64,000 bases of DNA from Oscillospiraceae bacterium (GTDB taxonomy: Bacteria; Bacillota; Clostridia; Oscillospirales; Ruminococcaceae). Shown here one piece after another: positions 19,336 to 33,241 of the stretch (its first letter is position 1; the number at the start of each line of letters is the position of its first letter). The notes under the pieces are model-generated. The model ran no database searches. It was not told the DNA's origin and was given only the letters and a program-made list of their open reading frames with translations. The stretch lies in contig JAAVIC010000033.1 of assembly GCA_014799385.1 (NCBI GenBank), forward strand, positions 186,001 through 250,000, written 5' to 3'. Made by a program: the position numbers and the translations under genes.

Positions 19336-19367
19336 TATATTACAAGTTGTACAAGCGAGGTGACAGA

Positions 19368-20189
19368 ATGACAGTTTACATAGACGTTCTGGTCGTGCTG
19401 AATTTGTACATAAACTTCTTTCTTGTGCGCTCAACAGCTCTGATTACACGTCGGGAGTGCTCACCGAAACGGTGTTTGCTGGCAGCAGTTATTGGCTCAC
19501 TTGGTTCGCTTGTGATTCTGCTCCCGGAGCTGCCATTTTTTGCTGTCGCGTTCGAAAAGACGATCCTTGGCGGATTTATGGTTCTTGCGGCGTTCGGAAG
19601 GCAAAAGCCTGTTGATTACGCGGTTTCGGCACTGTTTTTTCTGGTCGTGAGCTTCTCGTTCGCGGGACTGATGATGGCACTGTGGACATTCATCGCGCCG
19701 TTGGGAATGGTCTTTACGAACGGTGTCGCGTATTTCGATATTCCACTGGTGGCTGTGGCTGCGTTCACTGCGGCGGCTTACTTCACGGTTAAGTTGGTGA
19801 AATATTTCGCGGACAAGCGATTACACTGCAACAAAATCTGCTCCGTGAAAATCACAGCAAACGGCGCAGAAGTTACGCTGCGCGGATTATCGGATACGGG
19901 TAACGGTTTGTGTGACATCATCACGGGACTGCCAGTGATAATCTGTTCCGCCGATAAAATACGTGAAATCGCGCCGCAAAACGTTCTTGATTATCTCGAA
20001 GGAATCGCCGGTGGCGGAATCCGCCTTGTTCCGCTGAAAACAATTTCGTCCGAAGCACTGATTCCGATTTTCAGAGCGGATAAAATCACGATTGACGGAA
20101 AATCTGCGGCAGCGTTTATCGGAGTTACCAAAAATCCAATGCAGTCTGAAATCGACTGCATTTTTAACCCGAAAATCATATCAATATGA
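19368..20189 (+). CDS. spoIIGA: sigma-E processing peptidase SpoIIGA
   Basis: Membrane aspartic protease that cleaves pro-sigma-E in the mother cell on a signal from the forespore. The 273-residue protein has about five N-terminal membrane segments (from [17 protein letters not shown] to [15 protein letters not shown]), then a cytoplasmic protease domain with catalytic [10 protein letters not shown] near residue 175. ATG at 19368 follows CGAGGTG. It is immediately upstream of its substrate gene sigE (16 bp), the classical arrangement. Confidence 0.95.
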
Positions 20190-20205
20190 ATATGGAGGAA
20201 TGATT

Positions 20206-20910
20206 ATGTTAAAGAAAATACTGGAAAAATTTAAGAAATGGTTTATGAAACACGCTGATGACGTTCACTACATAAACGGCTCCGAGCAGCTACCCGCGCC
20301 ACTTACCAAAGAAGAGGAAGAGGCGGCGTTTCAATTGATGAAAACCGACTTCGACAAGGCACGCGATATGTTGATAGTTCACAATCTGCGGCTTGTTGTG
20401 TACATAGCGAAGAAGTTTGAAAATACGGGAATCTGGCTTGAGGACTTGGTTTCCATAGGAACGGTTGGATTGATTAAGGCGGTAAACACGTTCAGCCCGG
20501 ACAAGAACATCAAGCTGGCGACCTATGCCTCGCGCTGTATCGAGAACGAGATTTTGATGTATCTGCGGAAATATTCGCAATACCGTTATGACATCTCGAT
20601 TGATGAGCCGCTGAATGTCGACTGGGACGGCAACGAGCTGTTATTGTCGGACGTTCTCGGCACGGATAGCGACTGCGTAAATTCTCACATTGAGGAGGAG
20701 GTTGAAAAGCAGCTTCTCCATGATGCGGTGAATCACCTTGCTCCGCGTGATAAGAAAATCATGGAAATGCGATTCGGATTGAACGGCTGCAAGGAGCGCA
20801 CCCAAAAGGAGGTCGCGGACGAAATCGGTATCTCGCAAAGTTACATCTCGCGTCTGGAAAAGCGAATAATAAAACAGCTCCGCGAGGAACTGGAAAAGGT
20901 GTGTAACTGA
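20206..20910 (+). CDS. sigE: RNA polymerase sporulation sigma factor sigma-E
   Basis: Mother-cell-specific early sigma factor, made as an inactive precursor. The 234-residue protein has an N-terminal pro-region ([16 protein letters not shown]), region 2 ([34 protein letters not shown]), and region 4 with a helix-turn-helix ([20 protein letters not shown]). Start at 20206 is preferred because GGAGG lies 7 bp upstream; an ATG at 20200 is too close. Its TGA stop forms the first base of the inverted-repeat element that follows. Confidence 0.96.
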
Positions 20911-21249
20911 TACTAATTCACAATCTACGTATAGACATCTTTGCGGAAATCCCGCACTTATCGCTTCGTCAAAGCTCCTTGGCGCATGTTGCCCTCTGTT
21001 GGCGGCATCCTTGCCGGAGTGACTGCCTTTAATGCTCGGCATCGTGCCTCGCTTTGGCAGTCATTCCGCGACATCGTGTCGCGCCTTTTGGGGCAACTGC
21101 GCAAACATCCTGTTTGCGTACATACAGTACGCCCGCGTCGCTAGGTTGAATGCGTAGCGTTCATTCGTCCTCGCGCTAAGCGCGGTCTAGGTCGAACGCA
21201 CAGCGTTCGTTCGCGCAAATCTTGTCTATACTACGATTGCGAATTAGTA
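20910..21249. repeat. 340-bp inverted-repeat element made of chained hairpins
   Basis: The ends (about 20910-20945 and 21213-21249) are imperfect inverted repeats sharing ATACTAATTC, CAATC, GTATAGACA and TTGCG. The inside is a row of short stem-loops, several perfect: CGCGACA/TGTCGCG at 21067-21083, CGCAAACA/TGTTTGCG, GCGTAC/GTACGC, CGCGCT/AGCGCG and CGAACGC/GCGTTCG. No gene is visible inside. It looks like a MITE-like element or the gene for a highly folded RNA, and it fills the space between the convergent sigE and sigG. Confidence 0.8.
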
Positions 21250-21256
21250 TGAAACC

Positions 21257-21284
21257 GAAATCCCCTCCGATTTGGAGGGGGTTT
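21257..21284 (+). terminator. terminator between sigE and sigG
   Basis: Eleven-nucleotide arms AAATCCCCTCC and GGAGGGGGTTT with a GATTT loop, ending in TTTT on the plus strand. It may also stop sigG transcription from the other side. Confidence 0.7.
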
Positions 21285-21286
21285 TA

Positions 21287-22057
21287 TCATATTCGGTTCT
21301 TGATTTTATTAAGCGCGCCCTTTTCCAGGCGCGAAACCTGCGCCTGACTGATTCCGATTTCCTTGGCGACCTCGACCTGCGTCTTTCCAAGAAAGAAACG
21401 AAGATTCAGTATGCGCTTTTCACGGTTGCCAAGCCCGGCAATCGCCTCTTTAAGAGAGATCTCATTCAGCCAGTTCCAGTCATCATTGTTATCACCGAGT
21501 TGATCCAGCACATAAATCGTATCTCCCGCATCGGAGAACACAGGCTCGTACAGCGAAATCGGTTCGCTTATCGCCTCCAGTGCGATTACCACGTCCTGAC
21601 GCGGTACATCGAGTTCTTTCGCGATTTCCTCAATGCGCGGTTCTCTGCCCTTTTGAGCGGTAAGGCGCTCCTTTGCTTGCATTGCCCTGTACGCTAAATC
21701 ACGAACCGAACGGCTCACGCGGACAGGCGCATTGTCCCTCAGATACCGTCTTAGTTCACCCATAATCATAGGAACGGCATATGTTGAAAACCGCACGTTT
21801 TGGGTAATATCAAAGTTGTCAATCGCCTTGATAAGCCCGATACAACCGACCTGAAACAGGTCGTCTGCGCTCTCTCCCCTGCCCATAAACCGCTGAATCA
21901 CGCTTAATACCAACCGCAGATTCCCGCGGATAAGCTCCTCGCGCGCCGCCATATCGCCCTGCTTCACGCGTTTGAGAAGCTCTGTTTTTTCCGATTCCTT
22001 AAGCACTTTCAGCTTTGATGTATTCACTCCCGCGATTTCGACTTTATTGTAGTACAT
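21287..22057 (-). CDS. sigG: RNA polymerase sporulation sigma factor sigma-G
   Basis: Late forespore-specific sigma factor, 256 residues. It begins MYYNKVEIAGVNTSKLKVL, a sigma-G-specific N-terminus, and continues with region 2 (NLRLVLSVIQRFMGRGESADDLFQVG), region 3, and region 4 (TQVEVAKEIGISQAQVSRLEK). Start at 22057 follows GGAGG by 8 bp; a longer frame upstream is not needed. In most spore-formers spoIIGA, sigE and sigG lie in one direction, but here sigG is reversed and faces sigE across the 340-bp element. Confidence 0.96.
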   Translation of the reverse strand: MYYNKVEIAGVNTSKLKVLKESEKTELLKRVKQGDMAAREELIRGNLRLVLSVIQRFMGRGESADDLFQVGCIGLIKAIDNFDITQNVRFSTYAVPMIMGELRRYLRDNAPVRVSRSVRDLAYRAMQAKERLTAQKGREPRIEEIAKELDVPRQDVVIALEAISEPISLYEPVFSDAGDTIYVLDQLGDNNDDWNWLNEISLKEAIAGLGNREKRILNLRFFLGKTQVEVAKEIGISQAQVSRLEKGALNKIKNRI

Positions 22058-22096
22058 TTCCGACCTCCGTATTGGCTGCTTCCTTGAATGTACAAT

Positions 22097-22126
22097 TATT
22101 ATTGTCGGAAATCGGTTTTGATATTC
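22097..22126 (-). promoter_or_regulatory. possible sigma-F/sigma-G type promoter of sigG
   Basis: On the minus strand GAATA is followed after 17 bp by CAATAATA, similar to the sigma-G pattern (GAATA and CATNNTA). It lies 40 bp before sigG, which in Bacillus is read by sigma-F and autoregulated by sigma-G. A match by eye only. Confidence 0.4.
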
Positions 22127-22285
22127 TCCGAAATTTGTATGTGGTAAAATTTCACATTTGCGTATATCGCGGTTATAGCGCCCTGCAATTCTGTTGAAAA
22201 CTTTTTGTGCAAAACGACAAATCATATTGTTAAAAAATAATTCCCTTAATATGGTAAATATATAAAAGTTTGGGGGTTTTATCAA

Positions 22286-22314
22286 TTGATATATTTTCTA
22301 AAAAGTATTATAAT
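22286..22314 (+). promoter_or_regulatory. sigma-A promoter of the small HTH gene
   Basis: TTGATA, 17 bp, TATAAT; the start codon follows 22 bp later. Confidence 0.75.
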
Positions 22315-22336
22315 GGAAAAGAAAGGTGGTGATAAA

Positions 22337-22582
22337 ATGGAAGGCATTTCAAAGAAGGAAATGCTTGAAGAGTTTGGGACAATGCTGCGCGAAAAACGTA
22401 TGCAGAAAAATCTCACTCAGGAAAAGCTTTCAGAGCTTGCGGGAATCACAGATGTATATTTGCGTGATCTGGAACGCGGCAGTTATTCGGCAACTTGGCT
22501 AATATGGCTGAAGTTATGTACGATACTGGAGATAGATATTTCCAAGTTACAACAAAAGCTCACGGTATTGCAAAATTCTTAA
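22337..22582 (+). CDS. XRE-family helix-turn-helix regulator
   Basis: An 81-residue DNA-binding protein made of a single Cro/C1-type domain: GTMLREKRMQKNLTQEKLSE, LAGITDVYLRDLERGSY and the scaffold helix that follows. The start at 22337 has AAAGGTGG 7 bp upstream; earlier ATGs in frame are less well placed. It is a stand-alone gene with its own promoter and two strong terminators behind it. Target unknown. Confidence 0.85.
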   Translation: MEGISKKEMLEEFGTMLREKRMQKNLTQEKLSELAGITDVYLRDLERGSYSATWLIWLKLCTILEIDISKLQQKLTVLQNS

Positions 22583-22589
22583 TCAAGCG

Positions 22590-22622
22590 AATCCCCCGTA
22601 GTATTACGGGGGATTATTTTTT
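22590..22622 (+). terminator. terminator 1 after the HTH gene
   Basis: Perfect 11-bp stem (22590-22600 with 22605-22615), loop GTAT, then ATTTTTT. Confidence 0.88.
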
Positions 22623-22651
22623 ACCCCACCCTTTATAGGGTGGGGTTTTTT
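22623..22651 (+). terminator. terminator 2 after the HTH gene
   Basis: Perfect 10-bp GC-rich stem (22623-22632 with 22637-22646), loop TTAT, then a T-run. Tandem with the first terminator. Confidence 0.88.
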
Positions 22652-23060
22652 ATAAAAAAATCTGCGTTTCTCACTCTCCTGAAATTGAATAAAATCCCCT
22701 TTTAAGGCAAATGCGAATTTTACTGTTGATAACCATTGTGCATCTTTAACAAATTATTCACTGTTTATTATTTTGGAGAATTTATTTTTCAACAGTTCTG
22801 TTTATGTATTATTCACAAAAATTAAATGTTGAAAACCTATTTTCAATAAAGGCGACATATGCTGTACATAGTTATCAAAATCGTAATAAATCCGCTGTTT
22901 CACATGCCCGAAACATCGGGGTTATTCCTCAGAGTGAAAACAAATTTTTTGAGGAAAATCCAAACAAGGTTATCATCAAAACCGCTCTATGTGCGGAAAT
23001 AATCAAAATTTTTGATTTTTGTGCAACTTCACCAAGAACACATTAGATTTATATACAATC
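22652..23060. other. AT-rich intergenic stretch without a supported gene
   Basis: About 410 bp. An 80-codon frame at 22804-23046 has no ribosome site and no recognisable protein. Several loose DnaA-box-like 9-mers (for example TTATTCACA at 22809) and repeats of TTTTCAACA are present, but too degenerate to call an origin. I see no clear promoter, RNA or repeat. Confidence 0.5.
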
Positions 23061-23061
23061 A

Positions 23062-23089
23062 AACGCGCCCCTGTTCAAAGGAGCGCGTT
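23062..23089. terminator. hairpin downstream of the DUF368 gene
   Basis: Arms AACGCGCCCC and GGAGCGCGTT (one mismatch) around TGTTCAAA, just after the DUF368 stop codon on the minus strand. The T-run is weak on that side and better on the plus side. Confidence 0.55.
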
Positions 23090-23094
23090 GTATT

Positions 23095-23946
23095 TTATTC
23101 ATTTCCACTGTTGCTTGCTCCGAGTTTTTCAATGAGCACTGCCGTAACAATACCGAACAGCATACATACGAACCCGTAGCCCGTTTGCAGATTAAATCCG
23201 AATCCCTCGGGCAGAATTGCATAAATTGAGCCGATAACTAAACCCATAAGCGCGGAATAAACCATAAGTCTGTTTTTCTTGATCAGTATGGAGATTAGTT
23301 TCGCACCGCCGATTATACCGATTATCGCACCTATTGCAAACGGGACAATTACGTAAAAATTCATTTCCTTGATTGCCGTGATTATCGTTTCATACACGCC
23401 TATCAGCATCATTACAAATGACCCCGAAATACCCGGAATAATCGTTGTGACCGCTGCGAGTACCGCACAGCCCAGGAGCTTAAGTGAGATTATTACATCA
23501 AATCCGTTTACAACATCGGGCGCGAGCTTGAAAATATCTGCTTTTTCCAACACCGTAAGCCCGATAACCACCGCCATCGCGATTACAAACGGAACAACGC
23601 ATAGCGGCTTAACCTTTTTCTCGGATGTGCCCAGCTTGTAAATCAGAGGGATTCCTCCGATTATCAGTCCAAGAAAGAACATATTTGTCTGAATGCCGAA
23701 GTTGTCAAATAGTGAAGAAATCACAAACGATGAGAAAATTATTGCACCGCCTGCCCCAAGCGCAAAGGTCACCAGAAACCAGATGTTTTGGAAAATCTTC
23801 TTGATTCCCGAAATCGAATCGGTTAATCGGTCAAAGATTCCGAACACAACCAGCATCGTTCCGCCCGAAACACCCGGAATTACATTCGCAGTACCAAAAA
23901 CAATCCCGCATAAAAAATACTTCAGATATTCAACGATTTTTTTCAT
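23095..23946 (-). CDS. DUF368 family membrane protein (PopT-type polyprenyl-phosphate transporter)
   Basis: Polytopic membrane protein of 283 residues with the DUF368 signature near the N-terminus (GIVFGTANVIPGVSGGTM) repeated in the second half as AAVTTIIPGISGSFVMMLIG, and about eight hydrophobic segments. DUF368 proteins have been linked to return of undecaprenyl phosphate across the membrane for cell-wall synthesis (PopT). Its ATG overlaps the stop of the P-type ATPase homologue (ATGA), so the two are translated in a coupled manner. Specific function here is inferred from the family. Confidence 0.9.
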   Translation of the reverse strand: MKKIVEYLKYFLCGIVFGTANVIPGVSGGTMLVVFGIFDRLTDSISGIKKIFQNIWFLVTFALGAGGAIIFSSFVISSLFDNFGIQTNMFFLGLIIGGIPLIYKLGTSEKKVKPLCVVPFVIAMAVVIGLTVLEKADIFKLAPDVVNGFDVIISLKLLGCAVLAAVTTIIPGISGSFVMMLIGVYETIITAIKEMNFYVIVPFAIGAIIGIIGGAKLISILIKKNRLMVYSALMGLVIGSIYAILPEGFGFNLQTGYGFVCMLFGIVTAVLIEKLGASNSGNE

Positions 23947-26411
23947 AGTGTCTCCTTATGCATGATAAAATGTTCAATGAGAAAATACACAAGCGGCGGC
24001 AAAATTCCCGAAACAATGCTTATAAGCATTGCAAGAATATCAATCGCGGCAAGCCCAAACGCGCTGTTGATAAACGGAACATACACCAAAAGGATTGGGA
24101 AAATTGCCACAATCAATATTGAAGCCTTGCGAATCGGCGCAGATTTAATGAATGCAGTAAACGGCGAATCCGACGACAACCGCACAATCGCAAAGAGTGC
24201 CGTGCATATGCAGTAGGAAATCAGTGAACAGCTTCGTGCAAACTCAAAATTTGCCCCGTTATACATAAACAAATAGGACGCAATCGCAACAATTCCCGAA
24301 AGAGCGCCAAATAAAACCGCTCCGCCGATAAACCGATAGTTGATTTTACGTACCGCCATAAACTCTGACGGCGGCATATTCTGCTTGATATCCGAGTCAC
24401 AACCGATAAACCCAAGTGCGCAAATCGGCAGAAGGATCATTGACACCAACGCTATAATTGCGGAAGTAAGCATTAGCTGCTTGCTGATGAATAGGTTCAG
24501 AATCATAAGCAAAATCATTCCGCTGTAACCCGAAATCAACAGCGACACCGCACGTTTGATGTTTCGGTGAATTTGTCGCGCCGAAGCGATCATATCCGCA
24601 ATCGCGTAGAAATTGTCATCATTCATAATGATATCCGCTGCCTCATAGGTGCAGCCCGCTGCATGCTGGGATACGGTGATTCCCACATCAGCCGCCTCAA
24701 GAGCGTTAGCGTCCTCGGGACGAATCCCCGTCATCGCGACTACTTCACCGCTTTCACGGAGCTTCTCGATGATATACAGTTTCTGTTCACGGGTGATTTT
24801 CGCGTAAATATCCGCGCTTAAATTCAGCGGTTCGCCCAACTCTATGGACCGCTCGATTCCGCTTCCCGTGATAACCGATGCCGAATACAATCCAATCATC
24901 TTGCCCGTGGATTCCGCAACACTCGGATTATCCTCGGTAAGCATTACCACGCGTACACCCGCCCTGCGGCAGGTCTTAACGGCGGAGGACACCGAGTCGC
25001 GCAGCGGCGCGGAAAATGCAACAAACCCAACGAATGTGTAGGAAAATCCCGCAGTCAAATCGGGAACTTCATCATTAGCGTCCACACAAGCCACAGCCAA
25101 CACGCTGCATCCTTTGGAGTAGTACTCCTCGTATTTCCGCTTAGCATTGAACAGAGCGTCGCCGCTTATATTGCACATTGGAAGAATCAGCTCGGGAGCA
25201 CCCTTTATGCAGCAAATTTTCGACCCTCCGACATTCCAAATCGCCCCGGTTATTGAATCCGATTCATCGGGAATCTTATCTATAAATTCATTTTCTGTGT
25301 AAACATTCTTGATTTTCTCATCAAAGAAAGTCGCTTTAACCATCAGTGCGCGTTCCGCAGGGTCGGTGGAATTTGGCTCGCACGCGAGAGCTGCGACTTT
25401 ATACAGAAGCTCCTCGCTTCTTGCATAAACATTGCGCACCTCCAGACGGTTCTTGGAAATCGCGCCCTCCTTTTCCACACAAAGCACCGACAGCGAATTT
25501 ATCTTCTCAATATCGGCGAATGATTTAACAATAGCACCGTTTTTCACGAAATCCATTGCGCCCTTTGTGTAGTAGATACGAATCAACGCGCCAATTCCCG
25601 TGGGAATAAAACACAGTCCCAACGTGATACCGTTAAGCGCCGAATGGACAGCGTCCCTGCCGGATACCAATTCGATAATCATTGAAGTCAGAACCAGTGC
25701 CATTGCCACACAGCCGCACAACGGAACCACTGTACGCACGATCTTCTCCAGGCTCGTAAAGTATGGGTGCTTATCCGTAACCTCCCCACAGTGCTGATAA
25801 AGCTGCGTGTCAACGCCCGTGGCACTGACCTTACATATTGCCTTTCCGGTAAGTATCGTAGTTCCGCTGTATACAAAAGTCGGCTTCAAATCGCTTTTCG
25901 AGATTCCGCCCACGTATTTCGCAACGGGCTTGTTGCTTCCCGTAAGAATGCTCTCGTCTGCGGTAACGTCCTCCGCCTCAAGGATAAACGCGTCCGCCGG
26001 AACACGCTCCCCAGCCTGAACCACAATGGTGTCCTCCGGAACGATAAACTCTTTCTCAATAAGCTCGGGCTTTCCGCTGCGAATTACTCGGAACTTCATT
26101 GCAGCAGTATCCTCAATCTCTCCCAAACGGTCATCCGAAGCTCTTCGGCAGAAAATTTCCGCGCAGACATACATCGCGTCTATAAGGATAATAATGATCC
26201 CCGTGCCAATTCCCGAAACAAACAATGATAATATCCCCGCGATAAACATCAGCAGCACGGACGGCGAAAGGAAAACATCTGTGTAGGAAAAGCTCTGAAA
26301 CGCTTCCCGAGTCTTACTGTATGTATTCAATCCGTAAAGCGAGAGATTTTTGTCGACCTCGCTTTCGGTCAATCCAAAATAATCTTGCTTGAAATTAAAA
26401 AAATGAGCCAT
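23943..26411 (-). CDS. P-type ATPase homologue lacking all catalytic motifs (candidate pseudoenzyme)
   Basis: An 822-residue protein with the full layout of a P2-type ATPase: N-terminal GLTESEVDKNLSLYGLN, two first membrane segments, actuator domain (QAGERVPADAF), membrane pair, P and N domains, then a C-terminal membrane bundle. Yet the key residues are changed: the phosphorylation motif DKTGT reads EKEGA (residues 313-317), the actuator TGES reads TGSN (157-160), TGDGxNDxP reads TGIRPEDAN (561-569), TGD reads TED, DPPR reads SAPLR, and PEGL in TM4 reads PTGI. Only the nucleotide-domain KGAPE remains. The frame is intact over 2.5 kb, so it is not a decaying gene. It cannot form the usual aspartyl phosphate and probably acts as a regulator or scaffold, perhaps for the coupled DUF368 protein. 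Confidence 0.9.
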   Translation of the reverse strand: MAHFFNFKQDYFGLTESEVDKNLSLYGLNTYSKTREAFQSFSYTDVFLSPSVLLMFIAGILSLFVSGIGTGIIIILIDAMYVCAEIFCRRASDDRLGEIEDTAAMKFRVIRSGKPELIEKEFIVPEDTIVVQAGERVPADAFILEAEDVTADESILTGSNKPVAKYVGGISKSDLKPTFVYSGTTILTGKAICKVSATGVDTQLYQHCGEVTDKHPYFTSLEKIVRTVVPLCGCVAMALVLTSMIIELVSGRDAVHSALNGITLGLCFIPTGIGALIRIYYTKGAMDFVKNGAIVKSFADIEKINSLSVLCVEKEGAISKNRLEVRNVYARSEELLYKVAALACEPNSTDPAERALMVKATFFDEKIKNVYTENEFIDKIPDESDSITGAIWNVGGSKICCIKGAPELILPMCNISGDALFNAKRKYEEYYSKGCSVLAVACVDANDEVPDLTAGFSYTFVGFVAFSAPLRDSVSSAVKTCRRAGVRVVMLTEDNPSVAESTGKMIGLYSASVITGSGIERSIELGEPLNLSADIYAKITREQKLYIIEKLRESGEVVAMTGIRPEDANALEAADVGITVSQHAAGCTYEAADIIMNDDNFYAIADMIASARQIHRNIKRAVSLLISGYSGMILLMILNLFISKQLMLTSAIIALVSMILLPICALGFIGCDSDIKQNMPPSEFMAVRKINYRFIGGAVLFGALSGIVAIASYLFMYNGANFEFARSCSLISYCICTALFAIVRLSSDSPFTAFIKSAPIRKASILIVAIFPILLVYVPFINSAFGLAAIDILAMLISIVSGILPPLVYFLIEHFIMHKETL

Positions 26412-26457
26412 AAAATTTCTTCTTCCTATAACATATAATGCCGGTACACTCTCTTTT

Positions 26458-26486
26458 ATTATCTCATATTTTCGTCAAAAAATCAA
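26458..26486 (-). promoter_or_regulatory. promoter of the pseudo-ATPase/DUF368 operon
   Basis: Minus-strand TTGATT, 17 bp, GATAAT, 47 bp upstream of the ATPase-like start codon. Confidence 0.65.
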
Positions 26487-26534
26487 GTATTTTTGTAAAA
26501 TTTGTGTAAATTTAGACAACTTTTTCCGATTAAC

Positions 26535-26570
26535 ACAAAAATAAAGGACGAATTTTGCAAAAACTCGTCC
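26535..26570 (-). terminator. terminator after the MGMT-like gene
   Basis: Reading leftward, GGACGAGTTTTTGC pairs with GCAAAATTCGTCC and is followed by TTTATTTTT. Confidence 0.8.
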
Positions 26571-26580
26571 CTTTTTGCTA

Positions 26581-26889
26581 TTATAGCCCATTCCAGAGGT
26601 ACTTGTTCAGGTCGACCGTGCCGTTTGAGCGGAATTCTATTCCGTCCTCGCGGAGTAAGCGCTCTTGCTCGTTGATTCCGCCGAATGCAAACGCGCTTGA
26701 AAGTCCTCCAAAGCGGTTCACCACACGATAGCATGGAATCCCGTCTGGGTCGGGGTTGGCATGGAGCGCGTACCCTACAACCCGCGACCACTTGGGATTC
26801 CCCGCAAGTGCGGCAATTTGCCCGTAAGTTGCGACTTTTCCGCGCGGAATTTTTCTCACAACGTCATAGATTTTCTCAAACGTAGTCAT
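26581..26889 (-). CDS. MGMT-family DNA alkyltransferase-like protein
   Basis: Short (102-residue) protein consisting of the C-terminal DNA-binding domain of O6-alkylguanine alkyltransferases: VRKIPRGKVATYGQIAALAG and GYALHANPDPDGIPCYRVVNRFGGLS. The acceptor cysteine is kept, unlike alkyltransferase-like proteins that have Trp, but the usual PCHRV is PCYRV, so the catalytic-relay histidine is tyrosine. It may bind alkylated bases and hand them to excision repair, or still transfer alkyl groups weakly. Its ATG overlaps the end of the upstream gene by 4 bp. Confidence 0.88.
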   Translation of the reverse strand: MTTFEKIYDVVRKIPRGKVATYGQIAALAGNPKWSRVVGYALHANPDPDGIPCYRVVNRFGGLSSAFAFGGINEQERLLREDGIEFRSNGTVDLNKYLWNGL

Positions 26890-27800
26890 ACTTCCCTCTT
26901 CTCGTCTGTGTAGAGAATTCGAATAAAGTCACTGTCGCGTGTATCCATGTCGCCGAGATAGCATCGCTCGTGTTCGGGAACAGCCTCATAAGCCTCGCGG
27001 AGCTTTTCCTTGTAAAAATCGGTCGGCTCTTCAAGATACGTGTGATATGCTCTTATGCACAAGTCGTAAGCATCGGGTTTGCCCTGCACCGTAAGAGAAC
27101 AGTTTTTGATTTCGCTCAGCTTGTCCTCATTGGAAACAGGGTCGCAAATAAGCTTGCACTCTGCCTCGCCGAGTGCTCCGAGAACCACCCTTTCTCCGTT
27201 TTTCGGAGCAGCGCAAAGCGTCCCGTCTGCAAATAATTTCTCGATGTCGTCCAATGTGAGCATTTTATCACCCATAGCGTCCACGGAAAAAGTTTCGTCA
27301 GGGTAAATATTCAACTCCGTAAGCGTAATCTTGCCTTCATCTCGGACAAAAATATGAACGCTGTCACCGTCCAGTAGGTCATATCCAAATCCTTCTTTAA
27401 CCTTACAAGGCGTTGGGCTGGCGGAAAAACAAATGTGACGCTCTTTCCAGATTGACTTTTCACGTTCTGTCATTTGGAAGATATTTGCCATTTCGGGATT
27501 AATTGAACGCACGGTATCTTCAACGAGCTTGTAATAGCTATCGTTGTTGTAATTCCAATCCGCGCTAACAATTTCAAGATAACAACAATGATGAACACTG
27601 AGATGTTTTCCAACGGGAACGGTTGGAGTAAGCCAACCGCGCGACAACTGCCACGGAACATCGCACAAATCGGTTCCTTCCCAGCAGCTTATCGTGCCGT
27701 CCTCATAAACCGCCATATTATGCCAGAAATAATCCCGGTTATGTATAATTGCGGGAATCGTTACTCCCTCAATCTTCCGTTTTCTGTAAACTTTTCCCAT
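26886..27800 (-). CDS. hypothetical protein
   Basis: A 304-residue soluble protein I do not recognise. The N-terminal half contains the pattern HNRDYFWHNMAVYEDGTISC, rich in aromatic and charged residues; the C-terminal part resembles a helical segment (DFYKEKLREAYEAVPEHE). The frame is clean, with an AGGAGG site before ATG at 27800. It is translationally coupled to the MGMT-like gene. It belongs to a run of small accessory genes reaching to 29214. Confidence 0.7.
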   Translation of the reverse strand: MGKVYRKRKIEGVTIPAIIHNRDYFWHNMAVYEDGTISCWEGTDLCDVPWQLSRGWLTPTVPVGKHLSVHHCCYLEIVSADWNYNNDSYYKLVEDTVRSINPEMANIFQMTEREKSIWKERHICFSASPTPCKVKEGFGYDLLDGDSVHIFVRDEGKITLTELNIYPDETFSVDAMGDKMLTLDDIEKLFADGTLCAAPKNGERVVLGALGEAECKLICDPVSNEDKLSEIKNCSLTVQGKPDAYDLCIRAYHTYLEEPTDFYKEKLREAYEAVPEHERCYLGDMDTRDSDFIRILYTDEKREV

Positions 27801-27842
27801 AGCCCCTCCTTAATAACACACGAATTAAGTGATAAATTAACA

Positions 27843-28298
27843 TCAGAACACATCCGGCTCAAAATAGTTTTCCATTAAATACTGCTCAATAAATTGTTTA
27901 TGCCCTGAATTAGCACCGATTAATTTTTTTTCCATTTCTCTACGCTCAGAATAACTGCTTTCATAATACTGTATCATCTCAAGTAATTTTTGGTCGGAAA
28001 CTATCAAAGGACATGAGTTTACAATATTCCATTTTTTAGCCAAATAATTATATTCGCATTTTATGAGAAAGCTATCATGTTCTGTGAGCAAAACAAATAT
28101 ATGCTCATCCAAAGGGTCACCCGATCTTCTTATTGATTCGGACAGGAAATATGTCAAGGTAAGTACATTTCCACTGCCCCCATCACATACGGCAGTAATA
28201 AGATTAAGATTCATATATGACAGGGTATCCCCCTTTCTCGGGTTAACCATATGCACAATCCTCTGTCGCTGTGTTTCATTCAAAATAATTGCTTTCAC
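27843..28298 (-). CDS. hypothetical protein
   Basis: A 151-residue soluble protein with no family I can name. It contains a beta-rich first half (LITAVCDGGSGNVLTLTYFLS, then EHIFVLLTEHDSFLIKCEY) and a charged helical C-terminus (ESSYSERREMEKKL). Start ATG at 28298 has a GAGGTG site. Codon use looks like that of its neighbours apart from being more AT-rich, suggesting an accessory gene. Confidence 0.6.
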   Translation of the reverse strand: MKAIILNETQRQRIVHMVNPRKGDTLSYMNLNLITAVCDGGSGNVLTLTYFLSESIRRSGDPLDEHIFVLLTEHDSFLIKCEYNYLAKKWNIVNSCPLIVSDQKLLEMIQYYESSYSERREMEKKLIGANSGHKQFIEQYLMENYFEPDVF

Positions 28299-28347
28299 AT
28301 TTCACCTCATAAAATCGTTTTATCATACTTATTTTTCCTCGCTCTCA

Positions 28348-28692
28348 TCAATTAGGCACAATATCAAGAATTGTCCGCCTTGAATCGCCTTGGGATTCTA
28401 TCTTCAATTGTATAATCAGAGGAACATCGTTCCCGCCGTCGGCTTCAATATAATAATCGATTTGAAACGGCTCATCATCCTCATCGGTTGTATACGCGAT
28501 GTTTTTCTCTCTGTATTCGTCAATTGTATCAAATTCATTCAATTCAACCGTTCCCTGAACAAATTCAATTATATCATCAACGCTTAATGTACATTCGTCA
28601 ACAAGATTTACCACGTCTGCGAACCGCTTTTCATGGAGCGCGGTTAAAATCTGTTTCAAAAGGCTTATTGCGAAATCTCTCTTTTCTGTCAT
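28348..28692 (-). CDS. hypothetical protein, small acidic
   Basis: A 114-residue acidic protein: an N-terminal helix (EKRDFAISLLKQILTALHEKRF), a central acidic segment (SVDDIIEFVQGTVELNEFDTIDEY), and C-terminal strands (VPLIIQLKIESQGDSRRTILDI). It resembles small NTF2-like or immunity-type proteins found in Firmicutes, but I cannot assign a family with confidence. ATG at 28692 is preceded by GGAGGA. Confidence 0.6.
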   Translation of the reverse strand: MTEKRDFAISLLKQILTALHEKRFADVVNLVDECTLSVDDIIEFVQGTVELNEFDTIDEYREKNIAYTTDEDDEPFQIDYYIEADGGNDVPLIIQLKIESQGDSRRTILDIVPN

Positions 28693-28713
28693 TTCAATTC
28701 CTCCTCAAAATGT

Positions 28714-29214
28714 TTACCCTTGCTTTTTCACCAAACCCAAATCCCGATAGACCGTTTCAAATTCGGAGAGCAAACGCTCGCCGAAAATCCATATTTCATT
28801 CCGCCATGGATGTCCCAACAGCCCGAAATCAAAATTCTCGCCGATAAAGAAATGATAATCCCCATCGGGATAGAATGACGGAAAATACACATTAAACCCG
28901 CCTCCGATGTATCTCGCGTCCTCAACACGATAATCGACCTGTTCTTCGGGATTGCGCGGATCATACCAAAACCCATCATGCTGCCAATCCAGAGCGTATA
29001 TTCTCTCGCCGTTATTCGTTACCCGAATCATAATCTCCTTGCCGATTTCCTCCAGCCTGTCAAGCTGTTCTATTGACATATTTTCAATTCCGTAAACGCA
29101 ATATGGGAGGTCGATTCGAAATGGGACGTTCTCGCGATAACCGGGTATGAACCCAAGCTCGTTATAGACCCTATCCCAAACGGCATTGTATTCCTTTTTA
29201 TTATCCAAACGCAT
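28714..29214 (-). CDS. DUF2716 domain protein
   Basis: A 166-residue protein fitting DUF2716: YALDWQHDGFWYDP, then FPSFYPDGDYHFFIGENFDFGLLGHPW and the final EIWIFGERLL. Function is unknown; the family is common in accessory gene sets of Firmicutes and actinobacteria. The start at 29214 gives MRLDNKKEYNAVWD, which matches the family beginning; a longer in-frame start at 29247 runs into the upstream terminator. No membrane segment. Confidence 0.82.
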   Translation of the reverse strand: MRLDNKKEYNAVWDRVYNELGFIPGYRENVPFRIDLPYCVYGIENMSIEQLDRLEEIGKEIMIRVTNNGERIYALDWQHDGFWYDPRNPEEQVDYRVEDARYIGGGFNVYFPSFYPDGDYHFFIGENFDFGLLGHPWRNEIWIFGERLLSEFETVYRDLGLVKKQG

Positions 29215-29232
29215 AAGTTCTCCCGATACCCC

Positions 29233-29260
29233 AAAAGCCGGCATCAATACCGGCTTTTTA
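29233..29260 (-). terminator. terminator of the clp operon
   Basis: AAAAGCCGG/CCGGCTTTT, 9-bp perfect stem with an 8-base loop, directly after the clpX stop codon; Ts are available on both strands. Confidence 0.75.
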
Positions 29261-29261
29261 T

Positions 29262-30572
29262 TTATCCTATTTTCTTAACGGATTTCTTGTTGATTTTTGC
29301 TGAGGAACTGCGCTCAATAAGCGGCTTTCCCGTGCCGTTTACGCTGTCCACGGTGATGGTGATTCTCGTGATTGTCGGGTCGCTTGGTGCTGTAAACATC
29401 ACATCACGCAGAACATCCTCGACAATGGAACGAAGTCCACGCGCACCTGTCTTGGTTTTGATTGCTTTCTCCGCAATAGCGCGAATTGCCTTTGGCTCGA
29501 ACTCCAAAGCGATGTTATCCGCATTGAACAAGCACTTGTACTGCTTGATAAGCGCGTTTTTCGGCTCGTCAAGAATGCGAACCAACGCATCCTCGTCCAA
29601 TGCATCAAGCGAGGTAACAATCGGCAGACGTCCGATAAGCTCCGGAATAATACCGAATTTTACCAAATCCTGCGTGTTGACCTGTTTAAGCAGGTTTTCA
29701 TCTTCCTTGTCCTTCGATGATTTTACGTCCGCGCCGAATCCCATTGCGGAGCTGTAAACGCGCTGCGCAATCGTTTTCTCAATTCCCTCGAACGCTCCGC
29801 CGCAAATGAACAGAATGTTCTTGGTATCAACCTGAATGAATTCCTGATGAGGGTGCTTTCTGCCTCCCTGAGGCGGAACATTGGAAACCGTACCCTCAAT
29901 AATCTTAAGCAGTGCTTGCTGAACGCCCTCTCCGCTTACATCGCGGGTAATGGAGGTGTTTTCGCTGCGGCGGGAAATTTTATCGATCTCATCAATATAG
30001 ATGATTCCGCGCTCGGCAGCCTCAATGTCATAATCCGCCGCCTGAACCAACCGCAAAAGAACGTTCTCCACGTCCTCGCCGACATAACCCGCTTGTGTAA
30101 GTGTTGTTGCATCCGCAATCGCGAACGGAACATTAAGCATTCTCGCCAGCGTCTGCGCAAGCATTGTTTTGCCCACGCCGGTAGGTCCTAGCAACAAGAC
30201 ATTCGACTTTTGAAGTTCAACACTGTTGACCTCATCGCTGTTCAAAAATGTTCGTTTATAGTGATTGTAAACGGAAATGGAGAGAACCTTTTTCGCATCC
30301 TCCTGACCGATAATGTAATCATCGAGGACTGCCTTGATCTCCTCGGGAGTCATCAAATCATCGGGATTTGACAAAAACGCCTGTGAACTTTTTTTATTGT
30401 TGTTTCGCGCGGGTTGCCTTCCGAATCCCGGAGCTTTGATATCGCCGCTCTCCACCAACATATTGAATGACGCCATAATGCAATCGCTGCAAATTACGGC
30501 ATTTTCCGAAGTTCCATACAGAATCCGCGCAACTTGACTCTCATTTTTTCCGCAAAAGGAGCAAACCATCAT
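29262..30572 (-). CDS. clpX: ATP-dependent Clp protease ATP-binding subunit ClpX
   Basis: AAA+ unfoldase that feeds substrates to ClpP, 436 residues. The N-terminal zinc-binding domain is visible ([10 protein letters not shown] with CSDCI), followed by Walker [10 protein letters not shown], Walker [11 protein letters not shown], the pore loop (GYVGEDVEN) and the ClpP-contact IGF-like region ([14 protein letters not shown]). Two ATGs stand in tandem after GGAGG; the first is used here. It follows clpP and tig in the same direction. Confidence 0.97.
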
Positions 30573-30611
30573 AAATTTTTTCCTCCGTAGAATGGTGACA
30601 AAAGGATATTA

Positions 30612-31214
30612 TTAGGAAATATCGCTGCGGTTCTTATATACCTTGTCGATAAGTCCGTATGCCAATGCCTCATCGGCGTCCATAAAGTTGTCACGTTCGG
30701 TGTCGCGGCAGATTGTTTCATAGTCCTTGCCCGTATTCTTGGAAAGGATTCTGTTCAATCTGTCCTTAGTGCGCTGAAGATAATTGGAGCGAATCTGAAT
30801 ATCTGTTACCTGTCCGGAGATTCCGCCGCCCGAAATCAGCGGCTGATGGATCATAATCTCGCTGTTCGGAAGTGCGATTCTCTTGCCCTTCGCGCCGCTA
30901 GACAGCAAAAACGCGCCCATAGAAGCCGCCATACCCGTGCAAATGGTTGAAACGTCGCACTTGATGTACTGCATCGTATCATAAATTGCCATACCATCGG
31001 ACACAGAACCACCGGGGGAATTGATATACAGAAAAATATCCTTATCGGGGTCTTGACCCTCGAGATACAACAGTTCTGCAACAACGACACTCGCCGTTGC
31101 GGAATTTACCTCATCGTGAAGCAGAATGATTCTGTCGTTGAGCAGCCGCGAGAAAATATCGTAAGAACGCTCACCGTGGCTGTTTTGCTCTACTACGTAA
31201 GGGATATACGCCAT
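30612..31214 (-). CDS. clpP: ATP-dependent Clp protease proteolytic subunit
   Basis: Serine protease forming the tetradecameric proteolytic barrel, 200 residues. The catalytic serine is in [11 protein letters not shown] and histidine in IMIHQPL; the Asp lies in the following helix region. [20 protein letters not shown] is a typical processed N-terminus. Start at 31214 has AAAGGAG; an upstream in-frame ATG overlaps tig without support. Confidence 0.97.
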
Positions 31215-31245
31215 AATTTGCTCCTTTCTCTGACATCGGAGGAAT

Positions 31246-32529
31246 TTACTCGGTGACTTCCTCGATGTTCGCACTGTCCTTAACGATGTCCAGCGCCTTT
31301 TCAATTTTCAGATCGCTGATGAGGGTTTTCTCGGAGATTGCCGCTTTTACGTTCTCAACGTCAATTTTATACTCCTCGGCTAGGTTGTCGTATTCCTTGC
31401 TGATGTCGTCCGCAGTGATTTCAACATTCTCAAGCTCCGCGATCTTCTCAAGGCACAAACGCAGCTCAACCTGACGCTTTGCAGCGTCCTTAAAGTTCGC
31501 GCGGAACTGTGCCATAGTCATTCCAGTGTACTTGAGATAATCCTTGATGTCGATACGGGTTCTTGCGGACCACTCGCGCGCAATTTCATCAATACGGCGC
31601 TCGTACATAACCTGCGGAATTTCCGCCTTCATGTTGCCGATCATAGCGTCCATAAGGTCGGAATCCGCCTGATCGTCCGCTTCCGTTGCGTACTGCGCTG
31701 CAAGCTTCTCTTTGATTTCGCCCTTAAGCTCATCAACGGTATCCTTTTCGGAAACGTCCTTTACGAAATCGTCATTCAGCTCCGGAATATCCATTGCCTT
31801 GATTTCGTGCAGCTTGCACTTGAACACAGCGGGCTTTCCCGCAAGATTCTCTGCCTGATAATCCTCGGGGAACGTAACGTTTACATCAAACTCATCGCCT
31901 GCGTTCTTGCCGACAATCTGCTCCTCAAACCCGGCGATAAACGAGTGCGAACCAATTTCGAGCGGGAACTTCTCACCCTTGCCGCCCTCGAATGCAACTC
32001 CGTCCATAAAGCCCTCGAAGTCGATAACAGCGGTATCGCCGTCCTGAACGGCTCTTCCCTCAACAGTAACGATACGACCTACTCTTTCACGCATCTTGTT
32101 GATTTCCTCGTCAATCGCCTCATCGGTAACAGTCTTGACAGTTTTCTTTACGGATAATCCCTTGTAGTCGGAAATTTCCACATCGGGCTTGGTGATGATG
32201 TCCGCTTTGAGCGAAACACCGTTGTCGCGGCTTACATCGGTAACCTGCGTGTTCTCAATATCAACCACCTCAAGACCCGTCTTGTCGATGATTTCCTCGA
32301 TATTGTCGGAATACAGCGAATTAACCGCGTCCTCATAGAACACGTTCTCACCGTAATGCGACTCGATGATCTTTCTGGTAGCCTTGCCCTTGCGGAATCC
32401 CGGAATAGCGATTCTGGACTTCTGGCGGTTATAAACCGCATTGATTGCCGCCTCAAATTCCTCTGCGCTGAACTTAACATCAATCGCATAAGTATTGGTC
32501 GCTGTGTTGTTCTGTGAAATGATTTCCAT
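31246..32529 (-). CDS. tig: trigger factor
   Basis: Ribosome-bound chaperone and prolyl isomerase, 427 residues. The ribosome-binding signature is [13 protein letters not shown] (usually GFRxGKxP; here the proline is threonine). It is followed by the FKBP-type domain ([41 protein letters not shown]) and the helical C-terminal domain. AAGGAA precedes ATG at 32529. The tig-clpP-clpX order is standard. Confidence 0.97.
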
Positions 32530-32554
32530 TTGATTTATTCCTTCCTGATATACG

Positions 32555-33241
32555 TTAATTTATTTGTACCGGGTCAAAGCCAACGCCGTCCGCGGATACA
32601 AGTCTGTATTCAACGCCGCCGCGTTCCCCGTTAAGAGCGTCCTTTATGCTGCGTCCGTGAAGGTGAGCATAATAACAACGCTTTACTCCGTATTTGTGCA
32701 GAATATTCGTAATCGGAATATTCTCCTCCCGCCCGTAAATCGGGGGATAGTGAATGAATGCCACTAACTCCCCATCGAGCTTTGCCGCCGCCTGAAGCGA
32801 CAGCTCCAACCGTCCCGCCTCCCGGTTCAAGACCTTTGCATCGGCGGATTCGCCGTTTTCGCTTATCCAGCCGCGGGTTCCGCAAATTACCTTACCCTCG
32901 ACAAGATACGCGTTATTGAACAGAAAACTCAATGTAGTCAATCCGTTTTGCGCTGCGAACGATGTAACTTTGTTCATCGTTGACCACCACAAATCGTGAT
33001 TTCCCTTAACAAGAATTTTTTTTCCGTTCAGCCTCTTGTCAATAAATTCCAGATCAGCCAAACTGTTTTCCAATTTAAGCGCCCACGAATGATCTCCCAG
33101 CAAAATCACCGTATCTTCTGCGGTGATTTTGCTGTTCCAATTATTCTCAAGTCGCTCCAAATAGTTAGTCCAGCCGGGGAAAATGTCCATCGGCTTGTCA
33201 CTGCCGAGTGAGAGATGTAAATCTCCGATTGTATAAAGCAT
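32555..33241 (-). CDS. calcineurin-like metallophosphoesterase
   Basis: A 228-residue cytosolic protein with the full metallophosphoesterase motif set: GDLHL, LLGDHSWA, VKGNHDLWW, IHYPP and HLHG. Length and the HSWA variant fit a group of uncharacterised Firmicutes phosphoesterases. Substrate unknown. It lies between thrC (9 bp upstream) and tig in the long leftward cluster, and so may be cotranscribed with them. Confidence 0.88.
   Translation of the reverse strand: MLYTIGDLHLSLGSDKPMDIFPGWTNYLERLENNWNSKITAEDTVILLGDHSWALKLENSLADLEFIDKRLNGKKILVKGNHDLWWSTMNKVTSFAAQNGLTTLSFLFNNAYLVEGKVICGTRGWISENGESADAKVLNREAGRLELSLQAAAKLDGELVAFIHYPPIYGREENIPITNILHKYGVKRCYYAHLHGRSIKDALNGERGGVEYRLVSADGVGFDPVQIN

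Follow-up and report, generated by a model that had tools for sequence, protein, structure and literature searches.

Among the genes of a 64,000-nucleotide stretch from an Oscillospiraceae bacterium (contig JAAVIC010000033.1, positions 186,001 to 250,000; "the window" below) there is one that encodes a P-type ATPase fold with replaced catalytic motifs. The downstream gene belongs to the DUF368 family of putative undecaprenyl-phosphate (UndP) translocases. What can a pump with such a site do, and why is it encoded together with a lipid-carrier translocase? The best explanation, to which we assign a probability of roughly 0.58, is that the conserved pseudo-P-type ATPase is a non-catalytic partner of the DUF368 translocase. 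The pseudo-pump is under selection and has a near-constant DUF368 neighbour, and thus the dead pump may be a partner or a regulator of cell-wall building.

Motifs and constraint in the pseudo-ATPase

Four cation-ATPase domains of Pfam score above the cut-off in the window ATPase, two of them narrowly (20.9 versus 20.4 and 29.8 versus 27.3 bits), and the single match in the PHROGs search is labelled ATPase. The structure model and its structural matches yield a complete predicted P-type ATPase fold. By Pfam and predicted structure the protein thus belongs to the superfamily defined by A, P and N domains on a transmembrane (TM) bundle. On the other hand, it has none of the tested features of a functional pump: the phosphorylatable Asp, the Glu of TGES, the TGDGxNDxP hinge and the acidic residue of TM4. 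The window protein is a P-type ATPase by fold and, judging from the tested motifs, no functional member of the family.

The motifs were compared in 58 pseudo-ATPases (37 + 10 + 10 + 1 rows; L107, of 610 residues, was left out) and 19 active pumps. Residue numbers of SERCA are used for aligned positions, which we take to correspond by motif. The phosphorylation-site residue (P1) is Glu in all 38 aligned orthologues of the window's genus, the fragment loci L044-L047 being left out of this alignment. None of the 38 has an intact DKTGT at the locus, the finding in near relatives that was to speak against the original prediction. Over the 58 rows P1 is Glu in 47, Asp in 10 and Asn in one. The TGES Glu is missing in 57 of the 58; in the hinge, the first Asp (D703) and the Pro are lost in all rows and the Asn (N706) in 57, and the second Asp (D707) is retained in 54. 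The ion-site Glu of TM4 is gone in 58/58. The hinge Asp and the TM4 Glu are present in all 19 active rows. In P-type ATPases the TGES Glu, D703 and N706 serve Mg2+ binding and dephosphorylation.

Other residues are retained: the Lys of DKTGT (K352) and a Lys or Arg at K684 in 58 rows each, the Arg of DPPR in 57 and the Lys of KGAPE (K515) in 54. The equivalents of E442 and K515 are largely retained in 20 chosen rows; of these, the rows from the window's genus have lost the F487 equivalent, and the rest have Phe or Tyr at this position. The claim that every catalytic motif is replaced therefore holds for the motifs overall and is slightly too strong, as K352, K684, the DPPR Arg, D707 and K515 are mostly kept. 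The 822-codon frame and the motif positions agree with the open reading frame (ORF) and the alignment. Residues gained in at least 95% of 57 rows (all except the third-genus protein L161) and rare in active rows include R108, E135, C267, R278, C401 and Y458; Q613, H615 and R616, before TM5, reach the same level.

The 17 closest pairs, with dS up to 1.05, have ratios of nonsynonymous to synonymous substitutions (dN/dS, Nei-Gojobori method, NG86) of 0.027-0.137; for the window ATPase and its nearest relative the ratio is 0.031. These values are far from the value near 1 of a decaying gene and indicate purifying selection. The matched control was an active P-type ATPase of another subfamily (the L002 type of the window genome itself) in the 19 genomes with both proteins whole; mean pairwise identity is 0.586 for the pseudo-pump and 0.600 for the active one. 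With domain borders set by us, the identities of pseudo and active pumps are 0.57 and 0.69 in TM1-2, 0.68 and 0.60 in A, 0.49 and 0.68 in TM3-4, 0.73 and 0.68 in P1, 0.63 and 0.49 in N, 0.63 and 0.64 in P2, 0.57 and 0.78 in TM5-6, and 0.46 and 0.44 in TM7-10. Judging from the equal overall identity and the contrast between parts, the pseudo-pump is conserved to the same degree as a functional one, but its constraint lies more in the cytosolic head and less in the ion-path helices. The active PEEF rows of the motif comparison span a class, and their absolute conservation is not comparable with that within the genus. Selection of the pseudo-pump for another role, as originally predicted, is strongly supported by the invariant Glu of the genus, the low dN/dS and the recurrent DUF368 neighbourhood described below.

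Pairing with DUF368

The genus sample comprised the window genome and 42 others. An orthologue was found in 41 of the 43 (38 aligned, three fragments), with 52-98% identity in the other genomes where it is whole; none was found in G023 (73% complete) or G032 (80% complete, with a DUF368 match from base 50 of the contig). DUF368 is directly downstream in 38/38 genus genomes where the contig continues, the contig ending in G004, G011 and G027. A scan of named genomes produced 79 loci: 37 of the window's genus, 10 pseudo-ATPases at 32-34% identity, two fragments and 30 distant loci (24-28%), mostly of candidate phyla, with the motifs checked in two of these 30. DUF368 lies downstream in 34 of the 37 genus loci, the contig ending in the gene in the other three, and in all 10 at 32-34%, with one intervening gene in three.

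Wider searches covered 297 genomes of the family (E up to 1e-90), 394 of the order and 391 of the class (both E up to 1e-110), these sets partly overlapping. They added ten second-genus relatives that keep Asp at P1 and have the other motifs altered; DUF368 is downstream in 9/9 testable cases. L113-L122 were all assigned to this second genus (g16) by their position in the tree and because they share contigs with coded genomes. No pseudo members beyond the two genera and L161 were found in the family, order and class searches, where for L175-L183 only the P1 motif was inspected, 24, 1 and 7 matches came without a locus, and more divergent members could be missed.

Altogether DUF368 is downstream in 57 of 58 testable cases (38 + 10 + 9), the flanks of L204-L207 being only about 1.5 kb; the recurrent neighbourhood on which the original prediction depended is thus present. 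Many pairs overlap by ATGA or are a few bases apart. The pair is maintained in two groups of genomes with differing surrounding genes, which rules out a chance neighbourhood. No DUF368 gene was seen beside active relatives at 37 loci with flanks of 1.2-1.5 kb, and no adjoining P-type ATPase at 21 unpaired DUF368 loci (8 from other families of the order, 9 second copies, 4 from the family); at one of them, in G084, a canonical ATPase is three frames away.

The window DUF368 protein scores 135.4 bits with PF04018 (cut-off 26) and belongs to this family. With the NCBIfam model of PopT (NF052563) it scores 123.9 bits, below the cut-off of 400, and it is therefore PopT-like rather than a certified PopT. 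It is the only PF04018 match of its genome, and DUF368 occurs in 41/43 genus genomes. The NxIPGVSGGT and IIPGxSGSF repeats are present in all 33 aligned DUF368 proteins. An insert is present in many DUF368 proteins of the second group and in a few from the window's genus, and Pfam gave no match to it above the cut-off; no relative of DUF368 by sequence was found in the PDB.

DUF368 and DedA proteins are named as candidate UndP translocases in passages of two papers (PMC9876793, PMC12826051). DedA (PF09335) is above the cut-off in one of the 43 genus genomes (G039), with a weak match below it in G032, and in 0/4 second-genus and 0/1 third-genus genomes. Among the other genera of the family 10 of 12 have it, as do 22 of the 36 genomes from other families.

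For both proteins we built quick trees, in which long branches were flagged. The pseudo-pumps form one clade (35 rows, Shimodaira-Hasegawa-like approximate likelihood ratio test, SH-aLRT, 100, branch 1.3) adjoining active PEEF-type pumps, and the 33 paired DUF368 proteins lie on one side of a branch (support 91) with the 21 unpaired ones apart. The two groups with Glu at P1 are separate in the tree, and the approximately unbiased (AU) test is compatible with one Glu clade (p 0.235); the change from Asp to Glu may have been one event or two. Distances in 18 genus genomes correlate at 0.894 between ATPase and DUF368, 0.849 between ATPase and ClpX and 0.780 between DUF368 and ClpX. With the ClpX distance removed, the partial mirror-tree correlation is 0.702, and none of 2000 permutations was as high. 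Gene neighbourhood, a single clade in each gene tree, correlated divergence and the absence of DedA thus support the proposed coupling to DUF368; the further proposal, that the pseudo-pump may sense or gate the recycling of UndP, is compatible with a constraint that has shifted to the cytosolic domains.

Alternative readings of the pair

Several observations weigh against a partnership with the translocase. Thirteen of the 43 genus genomes have a second DUF368 copy. The genomes G045, G051, G061 and G065 have DUF368, no DedA and, by score, no pseudo-pump, so a cell without DedA does not need it. BacA was found in 28 of the 31 genus genomes searched, and according to part of PMC12826051 it may contribute to UndP flipping. 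The pseudo-ATPase L161, with NKAGG at the P1 motif, has no adjoining DUF368. Asp is retained at the phosphorylation site in 10 of the 58 clade members, for which inertness is less sure. Finally, stably syntenic genes co-diverge even when their products do not touch, and the mirror-tree result is thus supportive at most.

Nine of the thirteen second copies were examined (L192-L200); none of them adjoins a P-type ATPase gene, and they group separately in the tree. At the locus of L161 (L201:331-5481, minus strand) the next genes after the pseudo-ATPase encode a predicted lipoprotein that by eye looks CapA-like and a MATE-like protein with several membrane passes, and DUF368 matches occur in this genome in pieces at contig ends.

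The first alternative is mere co-inheritance in a stable operon, the pseudo-pump having an unrelated role as a scaffold, in ion sensing or with another partner. Within the genus some of the genes around the pair are stable as well, so that the linkage may be in part inertia; L161 adjoins other genes, and DUF368 elsewhere works without a pseudo-pump. However, the pair persists among different surrounding genes, is often joined by an overlap or a few bases, and the pseudo-pump is absent from the 21 other DUF368 loci. We consider co-inheritance alone unlikely.

Another possibility is that the pseudo-pump is itself in the lipid path, as a passive translocase or scramblase of P-type fold that would move UndP or a related lipid beside DUF368 without ATP. 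P4 flippases are P-type folds that carry lipids. The TM4 Glu is lost throughout the clade, and new conserved residues lie in or after TM4 (C267, F268, R278). The human P-type-like protein TMEM94, which lacks TGES, has a cytoplasmic vestibule that according to its authors, in a passage of PMC12134183, helps lipids to enter. On the other hand, the active control shows the higher conservation in TM1-2, TM3-4 and TM5-6, whereas a substrate path would suggest the reverse, and this pattern weakens the explanation. Besides, DUF368 alone is already a candidate translocase family in a passage of PMC9876793. A passive path is, in our estimate, somewhat less probable still than co-inheritance.

Yet less probable is an ATPase that remains active through a rewired site, in which a Glu or Asp nucleophile and other helper residues would energise DUF368 as KdpB drives KdpA. 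A carboxylate at P1 in 57/58 rows, the retained K352, the basic residue at 684 and D707 agree with such a site, as do the largely kept K515 equivalent, E442 in most of the 20 chosen rows and the Phe or Tyr at F487 outside the window's genus. It is weakened by the hinge losses: D703 is gone from every row, and N706 and the TGES Glu from all but one each. Moreover, the P1 residue itself varies, and the F487 equivalent is lost in the inspected genus rows.

A decaying pseudogene or assembly artefact has a negligible chance: broken copies exist in two genus genomes (two frames at L044 in G018, one TGA at L028 in G027, with assembly error possible), but frames are open and full-length in most genomes, and decay is ruled out by the low dN/dS and by the matched control, where divergence equals that of the active pump.

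Gene unit, known systems and biological meaning

The stop/start overlap noted for the two window genes is borne out: the ATPase stop at 23943-23945 and the DUF368 start at 23944-23946 share ATGA at 23943-23946. The hairpin after the upstream gene and the promoter-like site before the ATPase gene (Table 1) are compatible with a two-gene unit, as far as consensus matches can suggest. An Rfam scan of the window found two tRNAs and nothing else.

Table 1. Features of the pseudo-ATPase/DUF368 locus (window coordinates)
Feature	Residues	Position	Strand	Basis or comment
DUF368 / PF04018 putative undecaprenyl-phosphate translocase		23095..23946	-	283 aa, downstream of ATPase gene
Pseudo-P-type ATPase gene		23943..26411	-	ORF, 822 aa; full-length fold, A, P and N domains on TM bundle
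TGIRPEDAN at TGDGxNDxP	561-569	24705..24731	-	Alignment
TED at TGD	492-494	24930..24938	-	Alignment
SAPLR at DPPR, Arg kept	467-471	24999..25013	-	Alignment; APLR from 468
KGAPE, N-domain nucleotide-site motif, kept	403-407	25191..25205	-	Alignment
EKEGA at DKTGT phosphorylation motif	313-317	25461..25475	-	Sequence and genus alignment
PTGI at TM4 PEGL/PEEF, ion-site Glu position	270-273	25593..25604	-	Alignment
TGSN at TGES	157-160	25932..25943	-	Ser replaces Glu in window
Promoter-like site, TG before second hexamer, upstream of ATPase gene		26458..26486	-	Consensus match only, 9/12
Terminator-like hairpin between upstream MGMT-type gene and ATPase		26543..26573	-	Consensus match only

The window pair is flanked (19347-33241) by a spoIIGA/sigma-factor-like cluster and a clpX-clpP-trigger-factor-like cluster, the names being assigned by eye, and this neighbourhood is partly common to many genus members. 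The region from clpX to the MGMT-type gene (26886-29247, minus strand) encodes DUF7638/DUF7639 and DUF2716 proteins and contains two frames without a Pfam match. In the second group, an APH-family kinase gene follows the pair at nine of ten loci (L115:9718-10757, plus strand; Pfam on L115 only) and a DUF1294-type gene at five of ten. One lineage has a calcineurin-like phosphoesterase gene between the pseudo-ATPase and DUF368 (L118:8468-9295, plus strand; related frames in L119 and L120). The records of relatives, metagenome-assembled genomes, are labelled uncultured Clostridia, Oscillospiraceae or Ruminiclostridium, with isolate names including Lapin and Roe_deer_Colon.

The pseudo-pump differs from active cation P-type ATPases (LMCA1, PDB 9evc and 9euq; PEEF-type pumps of Clostridia such as L164-L170) in the loss of the hinge Asp, the TGES Glu and the TM4 Glu, in the replaced P1 Asp and in its pairing with DUF368. 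The DUF368 partner resembles the polyprenyl-phosphate translocases VCA0040 and SAOUHSC_00846 in belonging to PF04018 and having both repeats; unlike these it is encoded with a pseudo-pump and is below the NCBIfam cut-off, and some of its relatives have the insert. In KdpFABC the P-type ATPase KdpB drives the transporter subunit KdpA. The locus is similar in that one operon, a putative one here, encodes both a P-type ATPase and a distinct transporter; however, KdpB is catalytically active, whereas the window pump has lost its motifs and its partner is of a lipid-translocase family. By analogy, the proposed layout would resemble a KdpB-KdpA arrangement that no longer runs on ATP. Regulation by catalytically dead enzymes is well known, for instance from pseudokinases.

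Among described P-type-like proteins, the nearest with no observed cycle is TMEM94, which is eukaryotic, whereas the window family is bacterial. Passages of PMC12134183 describe a P-type-like layout without TGES and no phosphorylation cycle seen; the status of TMEM94 is disputed, as part of PMC13322241 presents it as the endoplasmic reticulum (ER) Mg2+ ATPase ERMA. Neither a described bacterial pseudo-P-type ATPase family nor a P-type ATPase tied to DUF368 was found in our searches of the open-licence literature. A bacterial family of this kind tied to a lipid-carrier translocase family would be new.

If the pseudo-ATPase is a non-catalytic partner of the translocase, the pump would no longer form a phosphoenzyme or move ions and would bind DUF368 in the membrane. 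Its cytosolic head may sense a ligand (nucleotide, metal ion or a signal from wall precursors) and pass on conformational changes that would set the rate of return of the lipid carrier to the inner leaflet. Extended further, and here we are tentative to the point of doubt, an ancestor of these gut Clostridia had a P-type pump that lost its catalytic function and became a dedicated control subunit of the UndP flippase, the cytosolic head reading the state of the cell and gating carrier return, and in some lineages a sugar-binding-like insert of the flippase reading the wall.

The clade offers a series from active PEEF pumps to degenerate forms, some keeping Asp and others bearing Glu, none of which has the hinge Asp. 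The small gene pair makes the control of UndP flippases testable in a laboratory host. If the extended reading is right, the recycling of the cell-wall carrier would be regulated by a pseudo-P-type ATPase.

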